A model generated the notes under the pieces. That model was not told the DNA's origin, made no database searches, and saw nothing but the letters and a program-made list of their open reading frames with translations. A program made the translations under genes and the position numbers. A stretch of 21,255 bases of DNA from a virus: IMG/VR virus record IMGVR_UViG_3300017753_000138, positions 1 through 21,255 of that record. One strand, 5' to 3'. This document shows positions 15,799 through 18,782 of this stretch, piece after piece. Position 1 is the first letter of the stretch. The number at the start of each line of letters is the position of its first letter.

Positions 15799-16415
15799 TA
15801 GTAGGCATCTTTTTGAACCACTGATGCACTAAACGGCCTCCAAGAATCTATGCCCGTATAACGGGATTGGAGCCATAGATCCGATTCAATCTTTTGCGGT
15901 GTTCCTTCAGCCGCATCTGCACTCCTGGCTTCAGACAAGACTTCCCGATACTTTCGCATCAAGTTTTCTTTTAACTCAGTCTTTCCTGTTAAATCCTGCC
16001 CGATTTCGGTAGCAAGACGTAACGCAATCGCTTGGACCAGTAATGAATCGTATTTTGCAGTATCGGTGACACGCTCGATGTAAAGAATATTTAAAGTCGA
16101 GCTATCGGTAACAATGTTGTCACCTTCTATTTTAAAGGCATGTTCATTTTCCTTAACCGCAATCAGCCGAAGCATTTCTGCTGGTTTCGGATAAGCATAA
16201 CTATATCCCCATGCTGGGGCTGTGGCTAAAGAGGGCAATGGACCTTCCCTCTTTAACGCACAATTCCATAAATGACTCCGAAGGACGAGATCCCTCACAT
16301 CTTCAAACCGATTATCACAAGCTCTTGCCCGTTGATTCTGGTCGGTCCTATCGTTGATAGAACGCTCTCCCAAATTCGAGAGAGCGATGTTACAGATATC
16401 GACTTCAGAAGCCAT
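15798..16415 (-). CDS. Tail tubular protein A, head-tail adaptor (gp11-like)
   Basis: 205 residues, against 196 for T7 gp11. The N-terminus 'DICNIALSNLGERSIND' (6-22), followed by 'RACDNRFEDVRDLVLRSHLWNCA' (30-53 region), is the recognisable signature of the gp11-like tail tubular family, with 'AWGYSYAYPKPAEMLRL' next (68-84). The helical C-terminus ('LMRKYREVLSEARSADA') precedes 'ESDLWLQSRY'. Twelve copies would bind under the portal and receive the gp12-like nozzle encoded immediately downstream by TAATG overlap. It starts two bases after the 140 aa gene without a clear Shine-Dalgarno, suggesting coupled translation. Confidence 0.88.
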   Translation of the reverse strand: MASEVDICNIALSNLGERSINDRTDQNQRARACDNRFEDVRDLVLRSHLWNCALKREGPLPSLATAPAWGYSYAYPKPAEMLRLIAVKENEHAFKIEGDNIVTDSSTLNILYIERVTDTAKYDSLLVQAIALRLATEIGQDLTGKTELKENLMRKYREVLSEARSADAAEGTPQKIESDLWLQSRYTGIDSWRPFSASVVQKDAY

Positions 16416-16860: not shown

Positions 16861-17799
16861 TTAAGAGGTTGCGCCTTGTTTACAAGCAATATGGACAACA
16901 CGTTCTTCTTCCAGACGGACTGAACCAAGAGTCATTCTGTAATAGATGTATTGACTGAATCGCTTGTCAGGGCGTTCTGTGATTCTTGCGACAATATCTT
17001 CCCAAATACACAGGCCGATTCCTCGTCTGTGAAATGCGACAACTCCGTCACAAGTAATGGAATTGGAAGTCAACGTACCAATCCTTTCGGTTCGGATAAT
17101 GTTAAATCCCATGTACTGGTTAAGATCACCAGCAACCAATGCACGAATTTGGTTATAGTCTGCTGAATTTACTTTTGTAGATGTCAGCAACCATCCCAAT
17201 TGTTGAGCATTAACTACCAAAAACAGATTAGATTGACCGTTGATATCGTAATCATCGGCATCTGCGGCTCCGAGAATCTTACGTGCTTCAATCAACTTTC
17301 CAACTGTAAGTGGTTGGCTGTTAGTTTTATTATTACTATCAACATCAAATGTGTTTGCATCTGTTGCAATCAATTGATCTGACGGTAAAGTCGTTGGAGT
17401 CCCGCCTGTTTTTCCTGCGTATGCAGTACCAGTTAAGGCCGCAATGATTTCATCATCCATTGCTCTTCCCATTGCCATAGCGGCATTGACGGAATATGCA
17501 GATGCAGGATCAATCAAAGTCCGCAAGCGGTCAGGATTGTCAATGAGATCGCCCCAATCGTAATCGATAGGCGTGACACGTCTGCGATCATGTGGCGTGT
17601 CAATCTGAGGTGAATCCCCGTGACGGGTTGTTACCTTTTGGGCATCGGTAGCTGAAATTCGGTCCATATAGACTTCTTCACCTACCTTGCCAGCTTCCAG
17701 GGTTACGGCTCCACGAAGCCTGGACCCCATCTGCTGAACAAGCAGTTGCACATTTGCGCTGTACTGCTTTACAAACGAAGTTGTAATTTGAGTAGACAT
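16861..17799 (-). CDS. Major capsid protein (HK97-fold type)
   Basis: 312 residues, in the range of podovirus capsid proteins (T7 gp10A is 345). The N-terminal part 'ITTSFVKQYSANVQLLVQQM' and 'LRGAVTLEAGKVGEEVYMD' is followed by 'TRHGDSPQIDTPHDRRRV' (58-75) and 'AYSVNAAMAMGRAMDDEIIA' (101-120). That order is characteristic of a phage capsid family found in many marine and BPP-1-like podoviruses. Its product would build the icosahedral shell on the scaffold encoded just upstream. It is the only late gene preceded by a sizeable non-coding region (17800-17906). Its ribosome-binding site GGATT (six to seven bases from ATG) and codons 2-3 lie inside a long imperfect hairpin, so translation may be controlled by RNA structure. 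Confidence 0.88.
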   Translation of the reverse strand: MSTQITTSFVKQYSANVQLLVQQMGSRLRGAVTLEAGKVGEEVYMDRISATDAQKVTTRHGDSPQIDTPHDRRRVTPIDYDWGDLIDNPDRLRTLIDPASAYSVNAAMAMGRAMDDEIIAALTGTAYAGKTGGTPTTLPSDQLIATDANTFDVDSNNKTNSQPLTVGKLIEARKILGAADADDYDINGQSNLFLVVNAQQLGWLLTSTKVNSADYNQIRALVAGDLNQYMGFNIIRTERIGTLTSNSITCDGVVAFHRRGIGLCIWEDIVARITERPDKRFSQYIYYRMTLGSVRLEEERVVHIACKQGATS

Positions 17800-17854
17800 A
17801 TTAATCCGTAATAAATTGTTAATAAAATCAACAACATACGGATTGTCTACTAAA
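17787..17854 (-). promoter_or_regulatory. Long imperfect hairpin covering the capsid RBS and start codon
   Basis: On the minus-strand transcript, four complementary segments nest in order. AGTAGAC pairs with GTCTACT (17845-17851 with 17791-17797). AATCCGTA pairs with TACGGATT (17837-17844 with 17803-17810). TTGTT pairs with AACAA (17830-17834 with 17816-17820) around a 9-base loop, and TTT/AAA closes the base with a one-base bulge. That gives 23 pairs interrupted by a 2x5 internal loop and a 5-base bulge. The 3' arm includes the Shine-Dalgarno box GGATT, the last base of the ATG and codons 2-3. The complementarity is seen directly; folding and any regulatory effect are inference. Confidence 0.6.
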
Positions 17855-17906
17855 GGTAGGTCCGCTACATAACTGGTAGCTTCAGGCCCCGAATGGGGTT
17901 ATCTGA
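17800..17906 (-). other. Largest non-coding gap of the late operon (before capsid)
   Basis: These 107 bases between scaffold stop and capsid start hold the 12-base hairpin at 17887-17898, a linker with no recognisable motif, and most of the long hairpin over the capsid start. I see no convincing sigma-70 promoter and, with no second gap to compare, cannot identify a phage-specific promoter. All other late junctions are 43 bases or less, which marks this as the likely site for capsid-specific control of transcription, RNA processing or translation. Confidence 0.6.
17887..17898 (-). other. Short GC hairpin after the scaffold gene
   Basis: On the transcript, CCCC-ATTC-GGGG forms a four-pair GC stem with a four-base loop, eight bases past the scaffold stop codon. 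No T tract follows, so it is not a normal intrinsic terminator. It could slow exonuclease decay or mark a processing point between scaffold and capsid messages. Confidence 0.4.
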
Positions 17907-18782
17907 TCAAGCAAGTGCGTTGTGAAGCCTTTGCATTTCCTTAACGGCTTGAGCATGATTCGGATGCGTTCCGTCAAGGTACGCAGATCTGAATTCTTTA
18001 TCAGCCATTTTGGAATCAATAGATTCTTGTGCATGAACGGGTGTCATGCCTCCAATCGCACCTCTTGTTCCAGGCAGGACGTTATCTTCTGATAAGACCT
18101 GACCAATCCTGGCAAATGTTTTAAGCATCTCAGGATGATTACTCAGCCCTGTTTCTCTTAAAACGTCCATTAGCTCTTCAGATGCAAAATCTGTAAATGC
18201 CCTACGGGCAAGTTCAGCATTCTTGTTGAAAGAATCTCCCCATTCACTTTGAATGTCTTGGAGATATTCAACATTCATCTGCTCAAACTGTTCATCTTCT
18301 TGAGCCATATCATTTTGAGAAATCTGATTATAGATTCCTAAAATGTTTCTTGCTTGGTCGTTTGTAAGTCCTAATTCGTGTGCAACATTTTTAAAATCTG
18401 CAACTTCATCGGATTGTTCACCATCACCAAGTTCAAAGTCGTAACCATCAGGAGCATTGGGTCTTCCCAAACGCTCATAAACTGAATTCCATCCTTCTGC
18501 ATCATCTTCTTTGGGAAGCTGAAGCATCTGGTCTGGATCTGCTCCGATCATTTTCCGTGCATGAACATAGGACTTTGCCAACTTATCAACAGAGTCGAAG
18601 CTCTGAAGGGATGGCTCACCTCTTAGTTCATCTGGCAAGGAACCAGGATCGAAGGCTAAAGGGCTTGCTTGTTCTGTTGCATGAGATCCGTCTAGGACAT
18701 GACCTGATGCAGATCCGGCCGATTGAGGTCCGTCAGTTAAGATCGAAGGACTGCTCTCGGTTGTCGGTGCTGATTCTTCCAT
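17907..18782 (-). CDS. Capsid assembly scaffolding protein
   Basis: 291 residues, very acidic and Ser/Glu/Gln-rich, with a disordered N-terminus ('ESAPTTESSPS') and no membrane segment. The motif 'GWNSVYERLGRPNAPDGYDF' at 97-116 is a strong marker of podovirus scaffolding proteins. A long helical middle ('NDQARNILGIYNQISQND', 'QSEWGDSFNKNAELARRAF') and the C-terminal 'DKEFRSAYLDGTHPNHAQ' complete the usual pattern. It would direct procapsid assembly from the capsid protein encoded next, then leave the head. The start at 18782 lies 50 bases inside the preceding gene, with only a weak AGAG ribosome-binding site. Confidence 0.87.
   Translation of the reverse strand: MEESAPTTESSPSILTDGPQSAGSASGHVLDGSHATEQASPLAFDPGSLPDELRGEPSLQSFDSVDKLAKSYVHARKMIGADPDQMLQLPKEDDAEGWNSVYERLGRPNAPDGYDFELGDGEQSDEVADFKNVAHELGLTNDQARNILGIYNQISQNDMAQEDEQFEQMNVEYLQDIQSEWGDSFNKNAELARRAFTDFASEELMDVLRETGLSNHPEMLKTFARIGQVLSEDNVLPGTRGAIGGMTPVHAQESIDSKMADKEFRSAYLDGTHPNHAQAVKEMQRLHNALA

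Follow-up and report, generated by a model that had tools for sequence, protein, structure and literature searches.

The start of the major capsid gene in the window, the 21,255-nucleotide stretch of viral DNA that we analysed, is hidden in a hairpin (P2) that is probably the 3'-terminal part of an RNA leader controlling translation of this gene in cis, a reading that we draw from the sequence of the window and of its relatives. P2 forms the 3' part of a larger leader, in which tandem hairpins named A, B and C lie about 40-110 nt upstream of the capsid ATG, and the comparisons given below indicate that the A-B-C leader is conserved among relatives. The coordinates are collected in Table 1. The capsid gene also matches PHROG 3437 (E 1.4e-74), a gene with a profile match to the Head-tail_con portal protein lies near it as well, and the equivalent of the upstream gene is annotated in related phages as a capsid assembly protein or a protease. 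Between the end of this upstream gene and the capsid ATG are 107 nt, the sole large gap in the operon of the window, as the first-pass annotation had noticed. When the 451 bases around the capsid start were compared with phage records, no match was found at the DNA level.

Table 1. Capsid gene, upstream neighbour and leader elements in the window
Feature	Position	Strand	Description and basis
Major capsid protein gene	16861..17799	(-)	312 aa; Pfam PF19821 Phage_capsid_2, E 6e-76
Upstream gene, scaffold/capsid-assembly or protease-like	17907..18782	(-)	PHROG 3742 and 458
Hairpin A	17882..17906	(-)	UCAG-AUAA-CCCC-AUUC-GGGG-C-CUGA; strict descriptor match; within the match of covariance model R2
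Hairpin in B position	17864..17880	(-)	GCUAC-CAGUUAU-GUAGC; predicted fold; corresponds in position to helix 3 of alignment A5
Hairpin C	17838..17865	(-)	GCGGA-C-CUAC-CUUUA-GUAG-ACAA-UCCGU; descriptor, model R2 and fold of the shortened transcript
Start-hiding hairpin P2	17791..17851	(-)	Predicted fold; native versus swapped-partner pairing
SD-like ACGGA of the capsid gene	17805..17809	(-)	Read from the sequence; paired in the MFE fold, P2 3' arm

The minus-strand RNA of 17787-17854 is predicted to fold into a single nested hairpin of 24 pairs (8+7+9) with a 3-nt loop and with bulges of 5 and 4 nt on the 3' side. The nested hairpin that had been read by eye therefore stands, but not its count of 23 pairs around a 9-base loop. 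The folding energy is -21.9 kcal/mol in 68 nt, versus -7.3 +/- 2.4 kcal/mol for dinucleotide shuffles (z -6.1, 0/200). Within a 131-nt context the value is -36.2 kcal/mol (z -4.6, 0/200) and P2 is still the dominant fold, and the other starts of the operon, taken in the same 85-nt frame, range from -4 to -19.5 kcal/mol against -21.9 kcal/mol at the capsid gene. The inner helix consists of an anti-SD sequence paired with the SD, and the partners in the outer helix are the U and G of the AUG together with codons 2-3; the 3' arm thus holds the SD, part of the ATG and codons 2-3, exactly as first described. Native pairing in P2 amounts to -11.9 kcal/mol, versus -3.4 kcal/mol with swapped partners. 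Close relatives retain P2, and at about 68% capsid identity it is kept with GUGGAC/GUCCAC replacing GUAGAC/GUCUAC, a synonymous UCU to UCC change being matched by an A to G change on the opposite arm. Inside the close clade of the window, covariation of P2 was not above partner shuffles because the pairs hardly vary and the numbers are too small. The pairings of both C and P2 nevertheless withstand some changes in this clade, for example GCGAA/UUCGC in L015, and AUGGA/UCCGU in L110, which includes a G-U.

Low structure at gene starts is the usual rule, and the major capsid gene is usually viewed as a gene for maximal translation, with a start expected to be open. We collected capsid relatives from IMG/VR and among named phages, which gave 134 distinct start regions and, after thinning to below 85% identity, a set of 99 leaders. 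Compared with 241 other starts from the same loci, which come from a simple ORF-plus-SD rule and may include some wrong calls, the capsid starts showed more SD pairing (0.71 versus 0.49; p = 1.6e-17) and a higher opening energy (10.3 versus 7.5 kcal/mol; p = 5e-11), and opening of the region -15..+12 at the capsid start of the window costs 17.0 kcal/mol, the 98th percentile of these other starts. Codons 2-5 of the capsid genes are more structured than random synonymous codons (mean percentile 0.365, p = 8e-5; 0.04 in the window); at the other starts the native codons are less structured than random synonymous ones (percentile 0.607, p = 3e-4). The manner of hiding differs among clades. In L047, L206 and L228, which are large clades, and in L085, a local hairpin (GAC...AU-GUC) has the AUG within its loop or beside it; its energy is -6.8 to -8.7 kcal/mol natively versus -3.8 to -5.7 kcal/mol with foreign coding sequence, and the gain over swapped partners (overall p = 1.4e-9) is absent from other starts. 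Swapping the partners of P2 in clades WIN, L012, L164, L096, L255 and L228 changed the pairing from -7 to -15 kcal/mol to -1.5 to -4.5 kcal/mol (overall p = 0.002). Shuffling only the upstream part had a significant effect on SD pairing in just 12/99 leaders, since the SD is hidden locally in other clades. The HTVC010P-type isolates belong to clades L050 and L092, which have the capsid gap but gained nothing in the swap test and whose codons lower the structure (percentiles of 0.76 and 0.60, respectively); swap and codon tests alike revealed no hidden start in the HTVC010P-like isolates. Altogether, as far as sequence comparison can tell, hiding of the capsid start in structure is under selection, which acts jointly on coding and structure as the first-pass annotation had proposed. 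A third way of hiding was seen in L033 (2876-3000) and its relatives, where the SD is covered by codons deeper in the gene (GGUAU/AUACC).

The upstream hairpins have a characteristic geometry. Hairpin A carries a 4-nt bulge, RYAA, on its 5' side, facing one base (AUAA versus a single C in the window); in L033 it reads GGGAG-ACAA-UCGC-AGUA-GCGA-C-CUCCC. Hairpin C is the mirror of A, with the RYAA bulge on the 3' side (ACAA in the window), and it is found as GGAG-U-CCG-GUAA-CGG-GCAA-CUCC in L033 and as GGC-C-CUGUC-GUAA-GACAG-ACAA-GCC in L096. A strict descriptor of these bulges matched A in 0.48 and C in 0.52 of the leaders, against 0.10-0.13 in shuffles or in other stretches of the loci; as this is about half of the leaders, not every clade has the strict geometry. 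In the close clade, the positions of hairpin C were paired at 0.92, versus 0.89 with shuffled partners (P = 0.05). Hairpin B has a GARAGA hexaloop in many relatives, a loop that is absent from the window's hairpin in this position. A perfect B-type hexaloop motif (CAGGAAAGACUG) is found at 15977-15988 on the minus strand of the window, in a tail protein gene, and this match (E 1.8) is probably due to chance. In L097 (Alteromonas phage ZP6), 100 nt upstream of the capsid gene, a GUAG bulge replaces RYAA in two hairpins (CGG-GUAG-CC-AUA-GG-GU-CCG and UCAG-GUAG-CC-ACUA-GG-U-CUGA), which may be a remote variant of hairpin A; a covariance model run on L097 did not confirm them as such.

Since MAFFT alignments of whole leaders put the helices one column off, the first covariance model (R1) was seeded with five related leaders from one clade (alignment A4) and run on both strands of the 134 sources (744 kb). 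All matches with E <=1 were on the plus strand and in a capsid leader. R1 reached clades outside its training, namely L255 (0.012), L095 (0.022), L189, L194, L195, L190, L256, L257 and L096; the clade of the window was not reached. An alignment of 22 relatives (A5) had 96% of its cells paired, a percentage flattered by the fitting of A5 to the structure and by the inclusion of the five seed sequences, and two-sided changes in 16/18 pairs. Its covariation score was 0.622, versus 0.169 in shuffled controls and at most 0.102 with slid partners, and the slid control, which preserves relatedness, speaks against relatedness as the source of the covariation. The covariation sought among relatives is thus present across clades, but not for P2 within the close clade. 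A second model (R2) was built from A5, the clade of the window being outside the training. In an unfiltered scan of the window, its top match was the leader itself (17907..17839, E 0.011; next match 1.8), and it also found the leaders of L033 (4e-4), L040 (7e-4), L110 (0.005), L199, L198, L276 and others. The A-B-C covariance model seeded with five sequences matches almost only capsid leaders. The DNA pattern GGATAACCNNNNGGCCCN{10,30}GGARAGAC gave a similar picture: among 2.9 million IMG/VR contigs, 27/27 matches lay upstream of a PF19821-family capsid gene, at 105-119 nt in 25/27 and at about 354 nt in 2/27, and one of them, in L276, precedes a capsid gene whose closest relatives are the L096 group, with 45% identity. 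A search of 84,980 bacterial and archaeal genomes gave one match, which had no capsid gene and is probably a chance occurrence. The pattern was derived from one clade, so that the search shows specificity and not breadth. The A-B-C element also provides a DNA/RNA signature of the PF19821-type capsid family across diverged genomes.

We then consider how such a leader might act. One strand (UCCGU in the window) serves both as the 3' side of C and as the 5' arm of P2, and hence C, with the start open, and P2, with the start closed, exclude each other. This sharing of a strand was found in the window and in seven other clades examined. When the folding of a growing transcript was simulated, A, B and C appeared first and P2 replaced C once the SD and codons 2-3 were present; in the eight clades, folds containing P2 were 5.6-12.9 kcal/mol more stable than the best fold containing C. 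By sequence, the SD and the start codon are held in structure, by P2 in the window and several clades and by the short local hairpin in L047, L206 and L228. We propose that, during transcription, A, B and C would fold first, and P2 would then displace C and close the start, so that most capsid translation would take place while the leader is kept in the C form. This form might be held by a putative phage or host factor on the bulges of A and C or, without a factor, exist only on nascent RNA. Opening of the leader would raise translation, and the outcome would be a capsid synthesis timed or limited within the late operon. In the clades with a local hairpin the start is hidden without C; C must therefore have another or an additional role there. 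Control of translation through a hidden start, as initially suggested, is in keeping with the start-hiding folds, with complementarity specific to the native partners, that persist in clades whose capsid genes have diverged, but the hairpin alone was an incomplete account, being the last piece of the A-B-C leader. The analysis gave no support to the temperature sensing, the coupling to scaffold levels or the RNase III processing that had also been suggested. More tentatively, and with rather less confidence than in leader control as such, the element may represent an RNA family not described before, in which a capsid leader of tandem hairpins, with RYAA internal loops in mirrored order, would work as a putative protein-operated switch of capsid translation (open as C, closed as the start-hiding hairpin) in an abundant marine podophage family.

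By analogy, the nearest precedents in mode of action are T4 gene e and MS2-type leaders, neither of which has A-B-C. In the MS2 maturation-gene leader and other metastable leaders (PMC6733600), as in our proposal, the upstream SD-complement is first engaged in another hairpin and the closed state is final. However, MS2 is an RNA phage and a different gene is concerned, and unlike its MS2 counterpart, hairpin C, together with a specific bulge, is conserved and is present also where the SD is hidden locally. Translational riboswitches likewise alternate between two exclusive folds, the SD being hidden in one of them, whereas no candidate ligand emerged for the leader described here, and Rfam 15 at gathering thresholds gave no leader, riboswitch or ribozyme match to it in the window and 20-26 related loci. 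We found no description of this leader in the literature searched, many subscription papers lying beyond that search.

A special case of leader control, which we regard as possible although on balance unlikely, is autogenous regulation, the capsid or scaffold protein binding the leader hairpins to repress or activate capsid translation, in the manner of T4 gp32 and gp43 or of the coat proteins of RNA phages. A and C share a 4x1 internal loop (RYAA versus C/U) in mirrored orientation, as expected of a protein-binding site, and all the pattern matches link the element to a single capsid family. The operator of T4 gp43 also comprises a hairpin about 40 nt upstream together with the RBS, and its UAAC/CAAC loop (PMC3014915) is loosely like the YAAC found here; it is, however, a terminal loop there and an internal bulge here, so this is a resemblance only. 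Moreover, the HTVC010P-type phage skadi has no DNA polymerase (PMC10504331), which makes a gp43-like binder unlikely there, and capsid autoregulation in the PF19821-type family was not found in the literature searched.

A timing role of the structure, as in T4 gene e, is less probable. In that case long read-through transcripts would carry a silenced capsid gene, and a shorter, translated mRNA lacking the 5' arm would arise from a late promoter or from a processing cut within the leader. The precedents are the T4 genes e, soc, 49 and I-TevI, in which long transcripts have the SD or AUG hidden and transcripts from late promoters lack the 5' strand (PMC3014915); in e, soc and 49, as in our case, an RNA helix that related phages conserve holds the SD and/or AUG of a late gene (PMC3014915). 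The AU-rich, single-stranded loop of P2 might offer a region for cleavage. Those T4 hairpins, however, are single and bypassed by late promoters, whereas the capsid leader has three hairpins upstream, with conserved bulges, the gene is that of the major capsid protein, and a scan of 17600-18300 for sigma70-like promoters gave none. Intrinsic terminators (a GC stem followed by a T run) numbered 0 in the same region. Phages without their own polymerase could use other promoter types, which makes the scan weak counter-evidence; skadi has no phage RNA polymerase, and its authors found neither terminators nor riboswitches (PMC10504331). Timing of this kind leaves the conserved A-B-C hairpins unexplained, and the 5' arm of the local AUG hairpin starts about 20 nt or less from the AUG and would stay on the short transcript.

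Equally improbable, in our view, is an element for mRNA processing or stability (an RNase III site or 5' protective hairpins) of which the hidden start would be a by-product. Stable tandem hairpins ahead of the most needed gene would suit such a role, but codon choice and the partner-swap tests point to the start site itself. Furthermore, the typical RNase III duplex is long, and the helices of A, B and C are short, with 2-5 pairs each, and interrupted by bulges. Still less probable is a cis-acting antitermination or pausing RNA of the HK022 put type, conserved for the polymerase and not for the ribosome: tandem hairpins with conserved bulges in phages using the host RNA polymerase recall such elements, but a site 40-110 nt before one gene of the late operon, coupled to the capsid start, fits poorly, as do the absence of a terminator in 17600-18300 and the lack of an Rfam match. 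Finally, chance folding of an AT-rich gap, which the near invariance of the capsid-start pairs in the close clade might suggest, is scarcely credible in view of the z of -6.1, the covariation across clades and the model matches at capsid leaders, and for A-B-C it is refuted by the covariation in A5.

Many relatives choose codons that hide the capsid start, beside a leader RNA absent from Rfam, which suggests that a family of ocean phages controls the production of its coat protein through RNA folding. If the leader is a switch, it would be a case of RNA-based control specific to the capsid in tailed DNA phages with SAR11-infecting relatives. As a separate observation, the capsid genes of several relatives are split by group I introns (Rfam RF00028, E 9e-22 to 1e-11), which occupy more than one insertion site (L221:3189-3399, L230:3022-3245, L232:3605-3831, L236:3616-3827, L137:3135-3344 and L217:3104-3313); these introns are small, about 210-230 nt, and contain no notable ORF.
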